Positions 5,877-15,682 of a stretch of DNA of 38,170 bases are shown piece after piece. The notes beneath the pieces were generated by a model. The model saw only the letters and a program-made list of their open reading frames with translations, was not told the DNA's origin and did no database searches. Every line of letters starts with the position of its first letter. Within the stretch, counting starts at the first letter, position 1. The stretch lies in the IMG/VR virus record IMGVR_UViG_3300021197_000871, positions 1 to 38,170 of that record. One strand, 5' to 3'. Source of the DNA: a virus. A program made the position numbers and the translations under genes.

Positions 5877-7620
5877 TGCGGTACGGTCTGGAAACAAAGA
5901 CGCCAAGAAGAAACTTCCTGTCGTATGCTTTAGCGGTGAGTTTGCAACACGTGCAGACGATGCTCTATTCGAGCACAGCAGTCTCCTTGTTCTGGACTTC
6001 GATCACATTGACGTTGCTCAGGCCAAAGGCGCGTTGGCTACGGATGATTACGTCTACAGCTGCTGGGTTTCACCGAGCGGTGATGGGCTCAAGGCTCTGG
6101 TAAAAGTCACCAACCCTGAGCGACACCGCGATCACTTCCGTGCCCTTCGAACCTACTTCCACAAGCAGTACGACCTGGAGGTTGACGAGTCAGGTGTCAA
6201 TGAGTCACGGGCTTGCTTTGAATCCTACGACCCAGACCTGATCCTGAACCCCGACTCTAAGAGCTTTGGTGCCTTCGCCTCTGAGAAGAGCGAGAAGCCA
6301 CAGGAAGCCAAGGTTGGAGAGTTCACGGACTACATGAAGCTAAACCTCGCTTGCCGTATGGTGCGGCAAGCTGAGGAGGGAGAGAAGCACGCTGCCCTGT
6401 TGAAAGCGTCTAAGCTGGTTGGTGGTTACATATCTGCAGGCCGTCTCGAAGAAGAGGAGGCTGTCCGCATTCTCTTCCGTGAGATCTGCAAACGTGACAT
6501 CGACAGCGAGGACGCAGCCATGACTACGATCCGTCAGGCTATTGAGGTGGGCAAGCGACTACCAATCCGTGCGATCATCGACAACGAGCAGGAAGCACAG
6601 CGCGAGCTGCTCATCAACGACGGTGACATGTCCTTCATCTCTTCAGATGACGAGGACTTCCGATGGATTGACGACTACGCCAACGGTAAGATCCCTGTGG
6701 GATTGGACACTGGCGACGACAAGCTGGACGAATACTTTCGCTACAAGAAAGAGTTCTTGATTATGAACGGCCACTCCAATGTAGGTAAGACTACGTTTGC
6801 ACTATACATGATGGTGAACTCAGCCGTGCGGCATGGATGGAAGTGGGTTGTGTACTCCTCGGAGAACCGTACCGCATCCCTGAAGATGTCGCTCATGCAG
6901 TTCGCTGTCAATCGCAGGATCGCAGACATGAACTACGATCAACGGAAGGCCGCTTACAAGTGGGTCAACGATCACTTTACCGTGATTAGCAACAACCAGG
7001 TGTACTCTTACTCTGATATCATTGTCTTCCTTGAGAAGATCGTTCGTCAGCAGGAATGTGACGCTGTGTTTGTGGACCCGTACAACAGCTTAAAGATTGA
7101 GCTTACAGGTAATGGGAGTTCTCATGACTACCATTACCAAGCAGCTTCAGAGTTCTTGACGTTCTCTACCACTAACGACATCGCTGTGTGGCTTAACATG
7201 CACGCTGTGACGGAAGCGCAGAGACGGAAGGGTGACGATGGTCTGCCTGTAGCACCATTCGCAGAAGACACAGAGGGAGGCGGTAAGTTCGTGAACCGAG
7301 CTGACTGCTTTGTTACGGTCCACCGAAAGGTACAAGCACCAGATCACAACATCAAAAAGACAACTGAGTTGCACATTCGTAAGGTCCGTGAAACCGAGAC
7401 AGGAGGACAGCCTACCTCGTTTGACGACCCAATCACCTTTACAATGAACACAGCGCACACAGCCTTTCGCATCAACACGACAGGCAAGGAGCTGTTTCAA
7501 AGCATTGACAAGGAGTTTGATAAGTACGAGAAGTTCAACATGCCCACTAACGAGTTCTTTTTCGGAAAAGAAGCTGTAACTTCACATAGTGAAGCGACAA
7601 ACGAAGAAATCTTCTCGTAA
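5767..7620 (+). CDS. Primase-helicase: VirE_N/AEP-like N-terminus fused to DnaB-type helicase, 617 aa
   Basis: I take the ATG at 5767 (MKVTFFQTVF) as start; a TTG at 5752 adds only five residues. Residues 1-165 fit the VirE_N/BT4734-like domain, a branch of archaeo-eukaryotic primases. It has VLDFDHID with D77 and D79, the SPSGDGLKAL block at 102-111, and SRACFESYD at 147-155. A helical linker leads to a RecA-fold helicase with Walker A GHSNVGKTT (335-343, K341) and Walker B AVFVDPYNSL (D437). A later ADCFVTVHRKV strand is typical of DnaB-like ATPases. It should unwind the replication fork and lay primers in one polypeptide. Catalysis by the N-terminal part is inferred, not shown. Confidence 0.85.
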   Translation: MKVTFFQTVFDKNAPHHVSVSTALDRIKKGQSKTTIDAVRSGNKDAKKKLPVVCFSGEFATRADDALFEHSSLLVLDFDHIDVAQAKGALATDDYVYSCWVSPSGDGLKALVKVTNPERHRDHFRALRTYFHKQYDLEVDESGVNESRACFESYDPDLILNPDSKSFGAFASEKSEKPQEAKVGEFTDYMKLNLACRMVRQAEEGEKHAALLKASKLVGGYISAGRLEEEEAVRILFREICKRDIDSEDAAMTTIRQAIEVGKRLPIRAIIDNEQEAQRELLINDGDMSFISSDDEDFRWIDDYANGKIPVGLDTGDDKLDEYFRYKKEFLIMNGHSNVGKTTFALYMMVNSAVRHGWKWVVYSSENRTASLKMSLMQFAVNRRIADMNYDQRKAAYKWVNDHFTVISNNQVYSYSDIIVFLEKIVRQQECDAVFVDPYNSLKIELTGNGSSHDYHYQAASEFLTFSTTNDIAVWLNMHAVTEAQRRKGDDGLPVAPFAEDTEGGGKFVNRADCFVTVHRKVQAPDHNIKKTTELHIRKVRETETGGQPTSFDDPITFTMNTAHTAFRINTTGKELFQSIDKEFDKYEKFNMPTNEFFFGKEAVTSHSEATNEEIFS

Positions 7621-8797: not shown

Positions 8798-9781
8798 ATG
8801 ACTACCTCAATCTTTGAGAAGAGGCTGAGCTACAAGCCCTTTGACTATTCTGAAATTACTGACCCACTCATCAATGCGATGTGGGCAAGCCACTGGACTC
8901 ACAACGAATTTAACTTCAAAGCTGATGTCCAAGATTACCACACCTCTCTCTCCGATCAAGAGAGAGCAGTAATCAAGCGAGCCATACTTCTCATTTCCCA
9001 AGTTGAAGTGGCAGTAAAATCATACTGGTCAAACATTGGAAAGCATCTGCCTAAGCCAGAGATTGCGGACATGGGGGCTGTATTTGGTGGCGTTGAAGTG
9101 ATCCACTCCCGCGCTTACTCTGAGATCTTGAGTAAGCTTGGACTGGAAGGAGAGTTCACTACCCTCCTAGAGAATGAGCCTGTACTGAACCGCGTTACTT
9201 ACCTGAACAAATACGTTGATCGCGTATTTGAAGACGACAAGAAGCAGTTCCTCTACAGTCTCATCCTCTTCACGCTATTCACCGAGAACGTCTCTCTGTT
9301 CAGCCAGTTCTACACTGTGCTTGGATTCAACCGCTTCAAGGCTGTGCTAAAGGACACCGCAAACGTGGTGCAGTACACCTCGAAGGAAGAGAACCTGCAC
9401 GCTGAGGGTGGGATGGCACTGATCAACCAGATCCGTGCTGAGCATCCCGAGCTGTTTGACGCTGAGCTGGAGTCACGCATATGGGAAGAAGCCCAGGTTG
9501 CGCTGGACGCAGAGAGCAACTTGATTAAGTGGATCCTGCAAGGATTTGAGAATGAGTTCCTTAGCGAGCCTATCTTAAACAATTACCTCAAGAACAGAGT
9601 GAACGAGAGCATGCGCCGCATCGGGTTTGCATTCGAGTTTCCTGTCAACGAGGAGAGGTTGGAAGTCACCGCGTGGATGGACGAGGAGGTATATGCCTCA
9701 GCCCTATCTGACTTCTTCCACAAGAAGCCTATCGACTACGCAAAAAGCACAAAGAGTTTCACAGCAGACGATTTATTTTAA
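8798..9781 (+). CDS. nrdB: Class I ribonucleotide reductase, small (radical) subunit, 327 aa
   Basis: This is the beta subunit of aerobic ribonucleotide reductase, which houses the dimetal site and the radical that is passed to NrdA to make dNTPs. Visible ligands are E100 and H103 in 'GGVEVIHSRAYSE', E163 in 'FTENVSLF', and E198 and H201 in 'KEENLHAEGG'. Y107 sits four residues after H103, where the radical tyrosine of classic R2 lies. The first ligand, usually Asp, appears to be E70 (ISQVEVAV). The start is the ATG at 8798, and the length matches phage NrdB. The stop overlaps nrdA's ATG as TAATG, so the subunits are translationally coupled. Confidence 0.95.
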   Translation: MTTSIFEKRLSYKPFDYSEITDPLINAMWASHWTHNEFNFKADVQDYHTSLSDQERAVIKRAILLISQVEVAVKSYWSNIGKHLPKPEIADMGAVFGGVEVIHSRAYSEILSKLGLEGEFTTLLENEPVLNRVTYLNKYVDRVFEDDKKQFLYSLILFTLFTENVSLFSQFYTVLGFNRFKAVLKDTANVVQYTSKEENLHAEGGMALINQIRAEHPELFDAELESRIWEEAQVALDAESNLIKWILQGFENEFLSEPILNNYLKNRVNESMRRIGFAFEFPVNEERLEVTAWMDEEVYASALSDFFHKKPIDYAKSTKSFTADDLF

Positions 9782-11427
9782 TGAAAGATTTTTACTGGGT
9801 CACAGAAGAGACCCGTCAATTTATGGAAAAGGGCTACCTAGACCCTGGACAAACCGTCGAAGAGAGGGCGCGAGAGATCGCAGACCACGCAGGTATGATC
9901 CTCGGGGACAAGCAGTTTGCAGACAAGTTCTACGAGAACCTGGCTCTTGGATGGTACAGCCTGAGCACTCCAGTGTGGGTGAACTTCGGCAAGAACAAAG
10001 GCTTACCTATCTCATGCTTCGGAACCACAGTGCAGGACGACACGTTCGACATCCTTCGTGGAGCCGCAGAGGTGGGAGCTATGAGCAAGGTGGGTGGAGG
10101 TACGGCCACGTACTTCGGGAACCTGCGTCCTCGTGGCGCCAAGATCAGCAGCGGTGGTGAGACTAACGGGGCCGTCTCTATGATGGAGCTGTACAACACC
10201 ACAACCAACGTCATCTCGCAGGGAAAGGTGCGACGTGGTAGCTGGGCTGCGTACTTGGACGTCGAGCACCCAGACATCGAGGAGTTCCTCCGAATTCGTA
10301 GCGAGGGCCACCCGATCCAGGATGTGTCGTTTGCCGTGTGTATCGGCAACGACTGGATGCAGTCAATGATCGACGGCGACCAGGATAAGCGTGCTATCAT
10401 GGCCAAGATCCACAAGAAGCGTAGCGAGACAGGCTACCCATACATCTTCTTCACGGACAACGTGAACGATCAGGCGCCTCAGTGGTACAAGGACAAGGGC
10501 ATGAAGATCAAGCACTCCCAGTTGTGCGCTGAGATCATGGAGTACACCGACGAGGACAAGTCGTTTGTGTGCTGCCTGTCGTCCATGAATGCGTTGCACT
10601 ACGAGGAGTGGCAGAACACTGATGGCGTTCAGCTTCTGGCTTCGTTCTTGGATGCGGTCTACTCTGAGTTCATCGAGAAGGCCAAGGACATTCCATTCAT
10701 GGAGAAGGCTGTTCGCTTTGCTCGTGAGCATAGATCCATCGGCGTCGGCGTGCTTGGCTACCACTCATACTTGCAGAGTCAAGGCATCCCATTCGAAAGC
10801 ATGCAGGCTCGGTTCATGAACAAGGCTATCTTCGGAGAGATCCAGCGGCAGTGTGAGGTGGCGAGCATGTATCTGGCAGGAGAGAAGGGAAGCCCAGCCG
10901 TTTTGGAGGGATATAACCGACGATTCAGCACGACCATGGCAGTGGCACCAACCACTTCGTCATCGTTCATCCTGGGGCAGGTGTCGCCGTCTATCGAGCC
11001 GTTGCAGTCTAACTACTTCACCAAGGACTTGGCTAAGGGTAAGTTCACCTACAAGAACCCCTACCTCAAGGATCTCTTGGCTGAGAAGGGTAAAGATGAC
11101 GCAGCCACCTGGAAGGACATTATGATGAAGGGGGGGTCAGTACAGCATCTGGAATTCCTGTCAAAGGAGGAGAGGGATGTGTTCAAGACGTTTGCTGAGA
11201 TCTCACAGATGGAGGTGATCCAGCAGGCAGCTGACCGTCAGAAGTTTATTGATCAGGGACAGTCGCTGAATGTAATGATCAGCGACGAAGTCCCCTTAAA
11301 GGACGTCAACCAGCTTGTCATCAAGGCTTGGGAGTTGGGAATCAAGACGCTGTACTACCAGCGCGGGGTCAACCAAGCACAGGCAGTGGGTAGGGACATC
11401 CTGAACTGCGCTGTGTGTGAAGGTTAA
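9781..11427 (+). CDS. nrdA: Class I ribonucleotide reductase, large (catalytic) subunit without ATP cone, 548 aa
   Basis: This is the alpha subunit that reduces ribonucleotides using the radical from NrdB. Seen are C79 (PISCFGTT) and C264 (FVCCLSSMN) as the reducing pair, the radical cysteine C249 with E251 in 'SQLCAEI', the Y525-Y526 relay (TLYYQRG), and a C-terminal CxxC (C543, C546 in NCAVCEG) for thioredoxin or glutaredoxin. The usual active-site Asn two residues before the radical Cys is Gln247 here. At 548 residues it lacks the N-terminal ATP-cone, so dATP feedback inhibition through that domain should be absent, as in many phages. It is the last plus-strand gene and meets the minus-strand genes tail to tail. 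Confidence 0.95.
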   Translation: MKDFYWVTEETRQFMEKGYLDPGQTVEERAREIADHAGMILGDKQFADKFYENLALGWYSLSTPVWVNFGKNKGLPISCFGTTVQDDTFDILRGAAEVGAMSKVGGGTATYFGNLRPRGAKISSGGETNGAVSMMELYNTTTNVISQGKVRRGSWAAYLDVEHPDIEEFLRIRSEGHPIQDVSFAVCIGNDWMQSMIDGDQDKRAIMAKIHKKRSETGYPYIFFTDNVNDQAPQWYKDKGMKIKHSQLCAEIMEYTDEDKSFVCCLSSMNALHYEEWQNTDGVQLLASFLDAVYSEFIEKAKDIPFMEKAVRFAREHRSIGVGVLGYHSYLQSQGIPFESMQARFMNKAIFGEIQRQCEVASMYLAGEKGSPAVLEGYNRRFSTTMAVAPTTSSSFILGQVSPSIEPLQSNYFTKDLAKGKFTYKNPYLKDLLAEKGKDDAATWKDIMMKGGSVQHLEFLSKEERDVFKTFAEISQMEVIQQAADRQKFIDQGQSLNVMISDEVPLKDVNQLVIKAWELGIKTLYYQRGVNQAQAVGRDILNCAVCEG

Positions 11428-11789
11428 AAGTCGCTCATCAAGATCTCGTCGATGGCTTCTTGGACATCGTCCTCGGTAGCCTCAAGAGTCATCATGATAT
11501 TGGCTTGAAATCTCTTAACCTCTTCACCTTCGTTGAAGACAACGACTGTAGGTACCACAACAATCTTGTGGTCGGACTGCATGGCAGGGTTTGACGCAAT
11601 GTCAACCCTTGCCGTGTTGCAGTCGCTAAGCTTTTCGATCCAGGGCACACTGTTTCCTGAGTTAAACGAGGCGTTAAACTCAATTACGCAGATACCCGAG
11701 TTGCAAACTTCTTCAGATTCCGCAACGCCCACAGAAGTGGCCGCCAACCAGAACGCAGAGAGCGCAAACAGGGTTAGTGTTGCTTTCAT
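11424..11789 (-). CDS. Secreted thioredoxin-fold protein lacking the CxxC active site, 121 aa
   Basis: A signal peptide (residues 1-23, TLTLFALSAFWLAATSVGVA) directs export. Then VIEFNASFNSGNSVPWIEKL aligns with the thioredoxin segment 'V-D-F-W-A-x-W-C-G-P-C'. Both catalytic cysteines are Asn (N43 and N46). The cis-Pro strand VVVPTVVVFNEGEEVKRFQA (P80) is intact, so the fold is kept while disulfide chemistry is lost. Two other cysteines (C29, C34) lie just after the cleavage site and could pair. It is the last gene of the late minus-strand run, 3 bases after the 94-residue membrane protein. A chaperone or binding role in the periplasm or virion is plausible but unproven. Confidence 0.75.
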   Translation of the reverse strand: MKATLTLFALSAFWLAATSVGVAESEEVCNSGICVIEFNASFNSGNSVPWIEKLSDCNTARVDIASNPAMQSDHKIVVVPTVVVFNEGEEVKRFQANIMMTLEATEDDVQEAIDEILMSDF

Positions 11790-11792
11790 TTT

Positions 11793-12077
11793 TCATTTCA
11801 GTTGATCTATTTTTTCTTCGATACGCTTGATGTCTTCTTTTATCTCGGTGATATCTTCTTGTGTGCTCATGATTGTCTGACGGACTAGCTGGTCCTTCAT
11901 GTCAAACTCCATGCGCGTGATATCTGGCGCTAATGGAGCGGGAAGTTCCTTGGCTTCTGCAATGTCTGCCTGCAAGGCAAACCACATGGCCACGATTGTA
12001 CCAATCCCCGCTGACGCCATGCCTATTGTCTTTAGGTCTAGCGTGATCTTAGTGTCCTCCCCTATCTGTTGAGCCAT
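11793..12077 (-). CDS. Single-membrane-span protein with C-terminal coiled coil, 94 aa
   Basis: The product has a short polar N-terminus, one hydrophobic segment (about residues 18-36, IGMASAGIGTIVAMWFALQA) and a long charged helix to the end (TQEDITEIKEDIKRIEEKI) with heptad character. With no cleavable signal it is probably an inner-membrane protein with a periplasmic or cytoplasmic coiled coil. Because it follows an outer-membrane barrel gene and lies a few kb after the holin-like gene, it could be an inner-membrane spanin or a holin accessory protein. No lipoprotein partner was seen. It sits one base from the barrel gene's stop. The family is not recognised. Confidence 0.65.
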   Translation of the reverse strand: MAQQIGEDTKITLDLKTIGMASAGIGTIVAMWFALQADIAEAKELPAPLAPDITRMEFDMKDQLVRQTIMSTQEDITEIKEDIKRIEEKIDQLK

Positions 12078-12078
12078 A

Positions 12079-13113
12079 TCAAATGATTACATAGTTGATT
12101 CCAACAGAGAAGTCGTGCCAAGATCTATCCCAGTACTTGTGAAATTTGCCCTCTGCAAACACACCAAAACTCTTGTTGAATCTTTTTCCAAAGATAAGGC
12201 CTCCAGAGTAATCGATCCACTGACCGCTGTTCACGAACCTGTGGTACGAATACTCACCATCTGTGTCTAGGTGATACGGAATTACATTGCCCCAGGTGTG
12301 AACCCAGAAGTCTTTTGTGAAGTGATAGTAGTCAAACCCAACTACCAGTGAATGAACCCATTGGTTCGGAAGCTGTCCTCTTTTATCTGCTACATAGTCC
12401 TCAAGAAAGTCAGGGACAACGATCTCCTCCCACACCTCGTAACTATTTGCCACGAGCGTACCGTCTGGAGAAAAAAACTCTCCTGTGTTGACGTCGATGT
12501 CATACCCCTCCTGGATAGCAAGTGAAGTGAAGTGAAGCTGGTTGTTCTCAAGGAGCCACTCATTAAGAGGATCGTACCCGTATGGCTCTGACAGCCTCTG
12601 CATGATTCCAGCGTTAAGCGACAGCTTACCAAGCTTAGCCCTGATTCTTTGGGAAGCCTCAAAGTATCTGACATCTGCAAATCCATCCTGCAAGAACTCA
12701 ACCTTGGTGATCCATTTGTCAGCCACGTATCTCAGGAAGTAGTCCTGGTCCAGGTAGTTAACGCCCTGCTGCCTTCTGTAGTCCCCCTCGAATAGAAACT
12801 CGAAGCCGCTCACCTTTCCGATGGTGGCGGCGTCTCCGTAGGACTTCTCTGTTCCGTTGTAAAACGTATTGGCTCTATTCTCGTACCCAAAGCGAGCGAT
12901 CTTACGAACCCCTGCAGTAAGGGAATAGTCGAACGGAGTCTCAACAACATCTGTCTCCAGTCCGTTTGAAACAGAGAACACCTCTCGATCCGACAGAGAG
13001 TTACCTCCGCTAAATGCTGTGTAGAAGGTTGCGAATTTGAACGCTTTCTTCAGTGCTTGACCTGAGACACTGAAGCTCAGCATCATCAGGATTATGGCTG
13101 TAATATATCTCAT
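12079..13113 (-). CDS. Putative outer-membrane beta-barrel protein with signal peptide, 344 aa
   Basis: An N-terminal signal peptide (residues 1-19, RYITAIILMMLSFSVSGQA) precedes a chain of alternating, aromatic-rich amphipathic segments. Examples are FLLRYV-like and WVHSLVVGFDYYHFTKDFWV, near the end GQWIDYSGGLIFGKRF, and finally DFSVGINYVII. The recurring aromatic girdle residues, Gly/Asn turns and terminal strand are what a Bacteroidota outer-membrane barrel looks like. It overlaps the T9SS cargo gene by ATGA (13110-13113), so the two are co-translated. It might anchor or export the cargo, alter the host surface against superinfection, or be a virion component. It is not assignable to a named family by eye. 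Confidence 0.65.
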   Translation of the reverse strand: MRYITAIILMMLSFSVSGQALKKAFKFATFYTAFSGGNSLSDREVFSVSNGLETDVVETPFDYSLTAGVRKIARFGYENRANTFYNGTEKSYGDAATIGKVSGFEFLFEGDYRRQQGVNYLDQDYFLRYVADKWITKVEFLQDGFADVRYFEASQRIRAKLGKLSLNAGIMQRLSEPYGYDPLNEWLLENNQLHFTSLAIQEGYDIDVNTGEFFSPDGTLVANSYEVWEEIVVPDFLEDYVADKRGQLPNQWVHSLVVGFDYYHFTKDFWVHTWGNVIPYHLDTDGEYSYHRFVNSGQWIDYSGGLIFGKRFNKSFGVFAEGKFHKYWDRSWHDFSVGINYVII

Positions 13114-15251
13114 TGCTTGACGATTCTTTCTACGACAATCCTTCCCTTGTAATTTACGACAACCTCGTAGACGCCTTTAGGGAGCGATCTAAGATCGATC
13201 TGCCCCGATGTAGTGCCAGATACTACGATTTGACCAGAGGCGCTATAAACGTCTGCAAATGCTCCGACAGGCGCCTGGAAGTTAATGACATCTCTAGTTG
13301 GGTTGGGCCATAACTGAACGCGGATATAACCCATGTCCATCACGTTGGTCACGCCCTGACTACAGTATTCGTACATCTCAATGCACACCGCATCCCACCC
13401 CACCTCGCAACAGTAAGGGTCAACCTCGATCACCCATGAGTAACAGTAATCATTGGCCCAGTATGGTTCCCCTGGGCCAGTGATGCAACCAGCATCATAA
13501 AGGCACTCTTCGTTAGCGGGAACGTTGGCGTACACGTTGTAATTAGCTGCGTCTAGGTCCATACACCCAGGCATCGGAGAGATGCAGCTACCGTTTTCTG
13601 TATTGGCCATCGGGTCGTAGTTGATGGCGGTAGGGATGGTGCAGCCGTACACGAACTCAATGCAGCTGTTGTTCTCTGTATTCGCCTCTTCGTTGTAGTT
13701 AAACATGGTTGGGTCGGTGCAGCCGAACACAACCTCTTCGCAATCTGCTTCATCGGTAGCTGCCTCGTTGTAGTTGAAGGCTGTCGGGTCTTGACATCCC
13801 GCGACTTCCAGCTCGTCACAAATGCCGTCGCCATCCATGTCGTTGATGCACTCGTTGTCGCACCCATAGTACTCGATCGGGAAGGTGCAGTCACCATCTA
13901 CGTTTGCCTCTGGGTTGTAGTCACAGGCGAAACTGAGCGTACATCCCACGACACCCTCCACGCAGAAGTCTCCACACACGGGGATACCATCGTATTTGAA
14001 TGGGAACTTCTTGATGGCGTCGGACCAAGGGTTGGTTCCGCCCTCCATGAACACCCCGCTGGGTCCGTCGAAGTAGAACCCGCACTGAGAGGCTGTGGTC
14101 TCTGCGTTGCCCTGCGTAAAGAACATGACCCTGACTGCTTCTCCAGAGTACAGAGGGATCTGAATCTCTTTCTCAAACTCATCGGCAGGATACATGGTAA
14201 ATGGTCCCCAGATCTCGTCTCCCTGCTGAACCCCAATCCAGCTACCGAACCAGCCATCACCTGCCCCGTCTGTAAGTGTCAGAGTAAAGTCACAGCTGGC
14301 CTCTGTCTCTAGCGTGTTGGCATCCTCATTGAAGTTAATTGCCTGAGGATCAGTGCATCCCAGAATCACTTCTGTCTGACAGCTGCCGTCGTCGATAACA
14401 GCACCAGGGTCATATTCTGTAAACCATGAGTCGGTGCAGCCCTGAGGGATAGGAGGAAAGCATGGGTCAATCACGATAGTATCACTTGATACTACTTCGT
14501 ACTGAGTGGTATCACCAACGTAGTACAGTGTCTCTCCACAAAGGCTAGATACAAGCAAGTTGCCGTCAACACCCCCGTAGCAGCTACCACACATACCATC
14601 ACCGAAGCTGTCGTACACGTCCACCCTAAACTCCGAACCAACAGGTAGGCACACAGCCTCCACAATGGGAGCTCCTACAATAGAATAGCCTGACCCCTCA
14701 GCAACCACTTCACCGTCTGGGATTGTGATTAGATCCCAGCTGATCTCAGCTGCATAAGTGTCAGGCGTAACTGTGACAAGGATGTTGTTGTATCCTTCTT
14801 CGCATTGCACAGGCGGGAAGTCGCAGGGTGCAGGGGCGTTGGCCCATGGGTGATAGTTGATTGCACCCGCCTGCATACAACCGAAGATTGGTGGCGGACA
14901 GGCAAGCACTTCGAAGGGAATGGTTTGCTCTGAGGTATTGAAGTCATACACCGTGGTGTCTAACTCACAGGTGTTGATCGAGAACCACCCCTCACCAAAT
15001 CCACAGCAGATGCCATCGCCAAAAGAGTCGTAGATGGTAAAGGTGTACTCACCAAGAGGCAGTGGAAGAAACGCCTCGACATACGGGAACTCACCCTGAA
15101 GAGGAGCAGACCCCGCAACTATCGCGTTGCTTGAGTCTCGAACTAGCCATGTGGTTTCTTGCCCATAGCCATCTCCTTGGATAGAAATGGAGACCCAGCC
15201 TGTCTGCGCTGTTGCAAACAGAGGCAAAAACATAAGCAATAAACCTCTCAT
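13110..15251 (-). CDS. Secreted multidomain protein with type IX secretion sorting domain, 713 aa
   Basis: A signal peptide (1-16, LLLMFLPLFATAQ) starts the protein. Three related 'GDG' modules follow: YDSFGDGICC near 74-83, YDSFGDGMCG near 213-222, and DGAGDGWFGS near 328-337. Eight Cys-bracketed repeats of the form 'GCTDPxAxNYNxxAN...C' follow or are interspersed, the last four in tandem (485-583). There is also a Ca-binding-like NDMDGDGICDE loop at 470-480 and a Cys-rich module near 589-632. Residues 645-713 form a T9SS type A sorting domain (VQLWPNPTRDVINF, then SGQIVVSG, then LPKGVYEVVV). Such proteins are exported by host T9SS and attached to, or released from, the cell surface. Finding one in a phage late operon is unusual. 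Confidence 0.85.
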   Translation of the reverse strand: MRGLLLMFLPLFATAQTGWVSISIQGDGYGQETTWLVRDSSNAIVAGSAPLQGEFPYVEAFLPLPLGEYTFTIYDSFGDGICCGFGEGWFSINTCELDTTVYDFNTSEQTIPFEVLACPPPIFGCMQAGAINYHPWANAPAPCDFPPVQCEEGYNNILVTVTPDTYAAEISWDLITIPDGEVVAEGSGYSIVGAPIVEAVCLPVGSEFRVDVYDSFGDGMCGSCYGGVDGNLLVSSLCGETLYYVGDTTQYEVVSSDTIVIDPCFPPIPQGCTDSWFTEYDPGAVIDDGSCQTEVILGCTDPQAINFNEDANTLETEASCDFTLTLTDGAGDGWFGSWIGVQQGDEIWGPFTMYPADEFEKEIQIPLYSGEAVRVMFFTQGNAETTASQCGFYFDGPSGVFMEGGTNPWSDAIKKFPFKYDGIPVCGDFCVEGVVGCTLSFACDYNPEANVDGDCTFPIEYYGCDNECINDMDGDGICDELEVAGCQDPTAFNYNEAATDEADCEEVVFGCTDPTMFNYNEEANTENNSCIEFVYGCTIPTAINYDPMANTENGSCISPMPGCMDLDAANYNVYANVPANEECLYDAGCITGPGEPYWANDYCYSWVIEVDPYCCEVGWDAVCIEMYEYCSQGVTNVMDMGYIRVQLWPNPTRDVINFQAPVGAFADVYSASGQIVVSGTTSGQIDLRSLPKGVYEVVVNYKGRIVVERIVKQ
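13113..13319 (-). other. T9SS type A C-terminal sorting domain (coding segment)
   Basis: This segment encodes residues 645-713 of the secreted protein. The order of motifs is that of the Por/T9SS sorting domain of Bacteroidota: 'LWPNPTRD' at the start, the central 'VYSASGQIV' strand, 'IDLRSLPKGVYEVVV', and a basic tail 'RIVVERIVKQ'. In hosts the domain targets cargo to the T9SS translocon and is cleaved by PorU or another sortase. Confidence 0.88.
13503..13799 (-). repeat. Four tandem GCTD/NYN protein repeats, 25-26 residues apart
   Basis: Residues 485-583 of the secreted protein hold four consecutive units (GCQDPTAFNYNEAATDEADC and three close relatives), spaced 25 or 26 residues apart, about 75-78 bases. 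Each has a Cys at both ends and an acidic Asn/Asp-rich middle. Four further, more diverged units lie upstream in the same protein (near 124, 271, 298 and 436). Repeats of this type are common in surface proteins of marine Bacteroidota and are thought to bind calcium and form disulfides. Confidence 0.8.
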
Positions 15252-15682
15252 TTCTTGGCTTTCTCGATGGTTCTTCCTGCGAAGTATGCACCAAACGCAG
15301 TCAACATCAAAATCTGTAACAAATCCACATAAGAGTCCTTTACATTAAAGGCTACATTATCCATGCTGTCTATAAACATAGTCACCATAAACATGCTCAT
15401 CAGGGCGATAAGAGTGACAGGTCTGATCAGCTTTGCAAGCTTCACATCGCTACCCATATCTGCCTTCCATCTCTCGGTGACGTTGTTTTGAAACTGGATC
15501 TCTGCGTCGACGGCAGCCACCCCTTCGTCTGTGTTGACGTCGGGGTCTTTGTCGATAAGATTCTTTACGATTCCAAGTCCACCGCTATCGGGCAACAAGT
15601 CCCCAACAACATCAAGCACATTAGGTGCTTTTGACTTGAGCCACTTACCGAGGCCCGTGTCTTTAATCTTCTGATCTTTCAT
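15248..15682 (-). CDS. Holin-like protein (GTA-holin/3TM type), 144 aa
   Basis: The C-terminal half carries the 'ERWKADMGSDVKLAKLIRPV' signature, close to the RW-x-A-D-M-x-S-D pattern of the phage/GTA holin family. Two membrane helices follow (about 88-104, PVTLIALMSMFMVTMF, and 119-136, VDLLQILMLTAFGAYFAG), with a basic end KAKK. The N-terminal 70 residues are soluble and include a Gly-rich amphipathic stretch (VLDVVGDLLPDSGGLGIV) that might be a third membrane-active segment. It would form inner-membrane lesions to time lysis. No endolysin gene is recognisable next to it. It overlaps the 3094-residue gene by 20 bases and the T9SS gene by ATGA. Confidence 0.7.
   Translation of the reverse strand: MKDQKIKDTGLGKWLKSKAPNVLDVVGDLLPDSGGLGIVKNLIDKDPDVNTDEGVAAVDAEIQFQNNVTERWKADMGSDVKLAKLIRPVTLIALMSMFMVTMFIDSMDNVAFNVKDSYVDLLQILMLTAFGAYFAGRTIEKAKK

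Follow-up and report, generated by a model that had tools for sequence, protein, structure and literature searches.

A conserved four-gene envelope block of apparently lytic phages encodes a T9SS type A cargo and a phage-specific outer-membrane barrel

The type A cargoes of the Bacteroidota T9SS, which include RemA, AmyB, NucA and the gingipains, have a Sec signal peptide and a seven-stranded, Ig-like C-terminal sorting domain (CTD) that matches TIGR04183/PF18962 and ends in a basic tail. The type A CTD is reported to be both necessary and sufficient for export through the T9SS (PMC10202324; PMC12618676), and its motifs include the basic C-terminal tail and a conserved glycine in the strand 3–4 loop (PMC11285876). 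Type B cargoes such as SprB are paired with barrels of the PorP/SprF type, and in such pairs the barrel encoded by the neighboring gene holds the cargo. Phages, for their part, are known to place products in the host envelope. The superinfection-exclusion lipoproteins Llp of T5 and the related Cor act at the host outer membrane and alter the receptivity of the cell surface (PMC9586334). Prophage-encoded type III effectors (e.g. SopE) make use of a host secretion system, the Lom protein of phage λ is a phage-encoded outer-membrane protein, and two-component and unimolecular spanins, the products of late genes near the holin, link the inner and outer membranes.

Here we describe a locus that shares features with each of these systems, found in a 38,170-bp IMG/VR viral record that we refer to as the window. 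Its central gene encodes a protein with the hallmarks of RemA, AmyB, NucA and the gingipains but, unlike the genes for these proteins, belongs to the conserved genes of phages that appear to be lytic and is paired with a phage-specific barrel. As with SprB and SprF, the barrel gene directly follows the cargo gene; however, the phage CTD is of type A rather than type B, and the phage barrel, modeled with ~12 strands, lacks profile similarity to PorP/SprF. Like T5, these phages would put a protein of their own at the host outer membrane, but they would do so with a set of four proteins and through a secretion machine of the host, not with one small periplasmic lipoprotein. The use of a host secretion system and the presence of a phage-encoded outer-membrane protein recall SopE and Lom, which are lysogenic-conversion genes, whereas a search of 29 viral records detected no tyrosine integrase. 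Finally, although the locus resembles spanins in potentially linking the two membranes and in its place close to a holin-like gene, it lacks an o-spanin lipobox and has instead a barrel and a T9SS cargo. In the open-access full-text literature that we searched, we found no description of a phage protein with a T9SS sorting domain.

Table 1 Features of the block and of its flanking holin-like gene in the window
Feature	Position	Strand	Support
T9SS type A cargo, 713 aa	13110..15251	minus	TIGR04183 and PF18962 matches; homologues at 34 viral loci
Cargo Sec-type signal peptide, aa 1-16	15204..15251	minus	Sequence and hydrophobicity rule
β-sandwich domain 1, aa 17-115	14907..15203	minus	AlphaFold; domain also in proteins of Bacteroidota genomes
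β-sandwich domain 2, aa 154-255	14487..14792	minus	AlphaFold
β-sandwich domain 3, aa 319-422	13986..14297	minus	AlphaFold
Stretch with eight GCxD/NYN repeats, aa 124-583, domains 2 and 3 interspersed	13503..14882	minus	Repeat count
T9SS type A C-terminal sorting domain, aa 646-713	13110..13316	minus	Profiles, AlphaFold, Foldseek, alignment of 55 phage CTDs
Outer-membrane β-barrel (OMP), 344 aa, signal peptide, ~12 strands	12079..13113	minus	Alignment, AlphaFold, Foldseek
Inner-membrane protein (s94), 94 aa, one TM segment and C-terminal coiled coil	11793..12077	minus	Sequence
Thioredoxin-like protein (Trx), 121 aa, signal peptide, no CXXC active site	11424..11789	minus	Weak profiles, alignment of 49
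Holin-like gene	15248..15682	minus	phrog_3427, E=6.5e-22

The cargo ORF starts with ATG, and its product begins with MRGLLLMFLPLFATAQ, a clear Sec-type signal peptide with predicted cleavage between MRGLLLMFLPLFATA and Q. All signal peptides reported here were called by sequence and a simple hydrophobicity rule only; this rule was positive for 72 of 76 cargo homologues, compared with 53 of 216 other ORFs. At the other end of the protein (...PKGVYEVVVNYKGRIVVERIVKQ), residues 648-713 matched the NCBIfam model TIGR04183 (E=1.1e-9; 38.2 bits against a cut-off of 23), and the Pfam model PF18962 matched with 28.9 bits (cut-off 27). TIGR04183 also matched 58 of 60 cargo homologues from other phages, which, with the low dN/dS of the gene (see below), shows that the match is not accidental. 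The protein has both of the published type A motifs: it ends in the basic tail ERIVKQ, the penultimate residue being K or R in nearly all homologues, and the glycine of the strand 3–4 loop, G673, is invariant across 60 cargo sequences. In an AlphaFold model built from a 60-sequence alignment (mean pLDDT 77.6), aa 646-712 form seven strands, a prediction rather than a solved structure. Foldseek aligned this domain with the NucA substrate CTD in a T9SS complex (8glk_D; TM 0.76 over the target, 2.3 Å) and also with the mirolase CTD (8qb1); with the whole cargo as query, Foldseek was informative chiefly for the CTD. Judged by sequence, the scores above cut-off, the signal peptide and the predicted CTD fold are those of a T9SS type A cargo; its T9SS-dependent export is inferred.

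Between these two signals the model places three β-sandwich domains, the repeats and a short helical segment rich in Cys and Trp. The eight GC[TMQ]x repeats begin at aa 124, 271, 298, 436, 485, 510, 536 and 562, and similar GCxD/NYN repeats are present in Bacteroidota genomes. The cargo contains 39 cysteines (5.5%), whereas every other tabulated gene of the window has at most 2.5% Cys. GCTD-type repeats with 53% identity to those of the cargo occur at 63113-63283 of MH319765.1 (marine virus AG-345-P14). An earlier note, which had proposed a Sec signal peptide, eight GCTD repeats and a complete type A sorting domain at 13110-15251, was therefore correct in all but the name of the repeats, three of which begin GCMx or GCQD rather than GCTx; the search with both sorting-domain models that it had proposed was positive. 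It had also allowed that the protein might prove to be an ordinary tail fibre. This was not borne out: the cargo matched no PHROG, structural or other, and has no tail-fibre features, in addition to its signal peptide and high Cys content.

The cargo gene is the first of a four-gene block that also encodes an outer-membrane β-barrel, an inner-membrane coiled-coil protein and a periplasmic thioredoxin-like protein, their localizations being inferred from sequence. The start of the OMP gene, downstream, overlaps the end of the cargo gene by ATGA. We found no match for the OMP in Pfam (E≤0.1), NCBIfam (E≤1) or PHROG and no sequence relative in the PDB; Foldseek returned only generic outer-membrane barrels, the best being the NalP translocator, and with a model pLDDT of 62 the strand count is approximate. 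We considered whether the OMP is a PorP/SprF shuttle and rejected this identity (hhalign probability 0.6% against six PorP/SprF proteins). A long and very conserved turn of the barrel at aa 73-102 (RFGYENRAN.FY.GTE..Y.DAA) is perhaps a plug or a periplasmic contact site. The Trx-like protein matched PF00085 and TIGR01068 only weakly, below cut-off, and PADLOC returned nothing for the locus except one weak match to s94 (E=0.006). All four proteins appear to be envelope-targeted, and together, if the inference from sequence alone is right, they would span the inner membrane, the periplasm, the outer membrane and the cell surface. Upstream, the holin-like gene and the cargo gene share a 4-base ATGA overlap. 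The earlier note had recognized this holin-like neighbor; the partners of the cargo, however, are the three downstream envelope genes, which it missed. A holin homologue lies within reach of the block at 30 of 56 testable loci and so is a frequent, not a constant, neighbor. In L003/L010 a gene lies between holin and cargo; checked as an endolysin, it had no family match. Convergent with the block, on the plus strand at 8798-11427, are genes for the small and large subunits of a class I ribonucleotide reductase.

A viral scan with the cargo identified 34 loci, and the order cargo, OMP, s94, Trx was retained in every locus of sufficient length. At the same distant loci, OMP identity was 61-70% and cargo identity 32-43%. 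A viral scan with the OMP yielded at least 577 confirmed stretches encoding the barrel, a count of stretches rather than of distinct contigs. By contrast, among 84,980 bacterial and archaeal species genomes we detected the OMP at only 3 loci, all on MAG contigs and one of them (L116) bearing phage-type genes; the single occurrence in a sample of 396 Bacteroidota genomes was already among these 3. Many of the viral records are fragments. Within the main clade, the ORF that directly precedes the OMP is complete in 76 cases; every one of these ORFs ends in a type A CTD tail, and 46 of the 76 show the 4-base cargo/OMP overlap. Wherever a contig extends far enough downstream, OMP, s94 and Trx occur together (72 of 72). 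Exactly one CTD gene, located in this slot, was present in 28 of 29 other viral records and two in tandem in the remaining one. Relative to three close relatives, dN/dS was 0.07-0.08 for the cargo, 0.04-0.05 for the OMP, 0.03-0.08 for s94 and ~0.07, where computable, for Trx. The block is therefore under strong purifying selection, with the caveat that synonymous sites are partly saturated. In 50,697 phage records we found no homologue of the OMP or s94, only weak Streptomyces-phage thioredoxin matches to the Trx-like protein (E ~0.03) and, for the cargo, only a GCTD-repeat match.

Several loci depart from the common arrangement. L030 (9968-13287) has a tandem pair of T9SS cargoes ahead of a single OMP, and short cargoes of 411-521 aa that resemble the second of these are also found in L069, L083 and L100. 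At L118 (2-9985), a truncated locus on a MAG contig filed as Maricaulis, a 3,327-aa ORF with a lysozyme-like N-terminus lies directly upstream of a truncated OMP. Two different cassettes (L037 and L040) lie near opposite ends of IMGVR_UViG_3300030330_003594, reflecting either two copies or a chimeric assembly.

The phages that carry the block, a large set of uncultured marine viruses, do not share a single virion backbone. A g471-type virion gene related to Callevirus phi38:1 and Elemovirus is present in 25 viral records and a MAG contig, whereas G005, G008, G017 and G459 are without it and encode crAss tail ring protein 2; in L019 the cassette sits between the crAss tail-ring genes Ring_2 and Ring_1. 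In the OMP phylogeny, phages with either backbone are intermingled within a strongly supported clade, the crAss-type L019 being sister to five phi38:1-type phages (98/96), which indicates that the block has crossed between unrelated Callevirus/Elemovirus-like and crAss-like backbones. With profile HMMs, we found none of the four cassette genes in cultured phi38:1 and an Elemovirus. No tyrosine integrase turned up in the 29 records, although several may be incomplete and serine recombinases were outside the search; lysogenic conversion is therefore unlikely. The carrier phages are probably lytic, subject to the same possible incompleteness, and the block would then not be a moron in the sense of a temperate-phage gene. 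No host has been identified; we assume a member of the Bacteroidota with a T9SS, because the CTD is restricted to Bacteroidota and relatives of these phages infect Flavobacteriia.

Deep-branching relatives separate the cargo from its partners. Among 36 long records with the g471 gene, 10 have the OMP and 6 of those 10 a CTD cargo. L238, L239 and L240 keep OMP and Trx without a CTD (s94 was detected in L238 and L240); the Trx and OMP genes of the first two lie between a holin-like gene and the gene for a u-spanin-like lipoprotein. The lipoprotein genes (L238:5991-6407 and L239:6399-6815), whose products have a C-terminal TM segment, come right after the divergent OMP. In L241, OMP, s94 and Trx are followed by a gene (6603-7130) for a protein of 175 aa that has a signal peptide and a cargo-like N-domain and may end in a shortened CTD. 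Because four deep-branching phages have the trio without a type A CTD, the trio has a role for which the T9SS is dispensable; it is therefore the core of the system, and the T9SS cargo is a partner that has been gained or lost.

The explanation that we favor, by a modest margin, is that the block serves lytic Bacteroidota phages as a trans-envelope module for surface display, working through Sec and the host T9SS. Late in infection, a timing inferred from gene position, a single transcription unit would yield four envelope proteins. The cargo would pass the inner membrane by Sec, acquire disulfides in the periplasm and, by virtue of its type A CTD, cross the outer membrane with the help of the host T9SS, an export that is inferred for the infected cell. 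The phage barrel would reside in the outer membrane and the Trx-like protein in the periplasm, into which the coiled-coil protein would point from the inner membrane; the barrel and its two helpers would most likely anchor or position the cargo on the infected cell, through a barrel-cargo contact that is likewise inferred. The β-sandwich and repeat domains would then remodel the cell surface, most likely by masking a glycan or protein receptor so that neither rival virions nor the phage's own progeny re-adsorb. What suggests remodeling of the surface is that, in the virion/lysis region of phages that appear to be lytic, a surface protein that diversifies is combined with an anchor that is conserved; the masking step taken alone is an inference that we would lean slightly against. 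Masking of a receptor, as with T5 Llp, nonetheless ranks first among the possible uses, ahead of help with lysis and then adhesion, none of them demonstrated. Against the display model, there is no experiment, the host T9SS is an assumption, the trio persists in four deep-branching phages that have no type A CTD, the barrel is unrelated to the PorP/SprF shuttles, nothing shows direct contact between barrel and cargo, type A CTDs normally rely on PorV of the host without a barrel of their own (PMC12618676), and the gene position of the block is equally suited to lysis.

The rival that survives best, and that remains possible, is an accessory lysis module in which s94, the Trx-like protein and the OMP link both membranes and help to breach the outer membrane or surface layer, the cargo weakening that layer from outside. 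In its favor are the nearby holin homologue at 30 of 56 loci, the holin-like and u-spanin-like neighbors in L238 and L239, the single TM and coiled coil of s94, and a screen of six cassette-bearing phages that found no u-spanin. However, this screen was equally negative for cassette-free phages; it thus reveals no pattern of replacement and is uninformative (one cassette-negative genome was only partly read). Moreover, the u-spanin-like gene and the trio coexist in L238/L239, the barrel has no lipobox, and a large T9SS cargo is unnecessary for breaching the outer membrane. A spanin identity as such was rejected, as on reading the sequences we found no lipobox in the OMP, s94 or the Trx-like protein. 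Less likely, though also still possible, is an adhesin or aggregation factor, in which the exported cargo would make infected cells adhere to polysaccharide, particles or further cells and bring the burst near new hosts. The cargo has domains that also occur in host proteins, Foldseek relates its β-sandwich domains weakly to surface proteins that bind glycans and to calcium-dependent carbohydrate-binding modules, and a few cargoes match CARDB or CBM_48; but the domain matches are weak, no ligand is known, and adhesion alone leaves the conserved barrel, Trx and inner-membrane coil unexplained. Very unlikely is virion or vesicle decoration, in which T9SS-released cargo would bind progeny virions or vesicles after lysis as an extra fibre: the block does lie among virion genes in some phages (L026, and L019 with its tail-ring neighbors), but signal peptides and a sorting domain direct proteins away from cytoplasmic assembly, and neither cargo nor OMP matches a structural PHROG. 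A captured host gene without phage function is all but excluded, for although single cargo domains are present in host genomes, purifying selection is strong, the gene occupies the same slot in dozens of phages and the barrel is essentially absent from bacterial genomes.

The earlier note had argued against random pickup of a host gene, and this claim is strongly supported by the operon-type overlap, the conserved order, the purifying selection and the single CTD gene per phage; the same gene was, as it had asked, found in the same slot in many related phage contigs. Its further proposal of export by the host T9SS for exclusion, aggregation or decoration is supported as a reading, with the particular use undecided. 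Returning to the display model, a bolder version, for which we find the evidence close to balanced but tilting slightly against, holds that a mobile trans-envelope apparatus of four genes is common to lytic phages from at least two unrelated virion lineages. This apparatus would be a new surface-takeover system in which a T9SS-displayed protein is held by a phage-specific barrel and whose core trio works without a T9SS cargo.

The block adds a virus-specific family of outer-membrane barrels. If the display model is correct, uncultured phages of Bacteroidota turn one of the major secretion machines of their hosts to their own use in the course of lytic infection, and do so with a conserved and exchanged module that is invisible to Pfam and PHROG annotation. 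What such phages display on the infected cell, and why, would then become a testable question.
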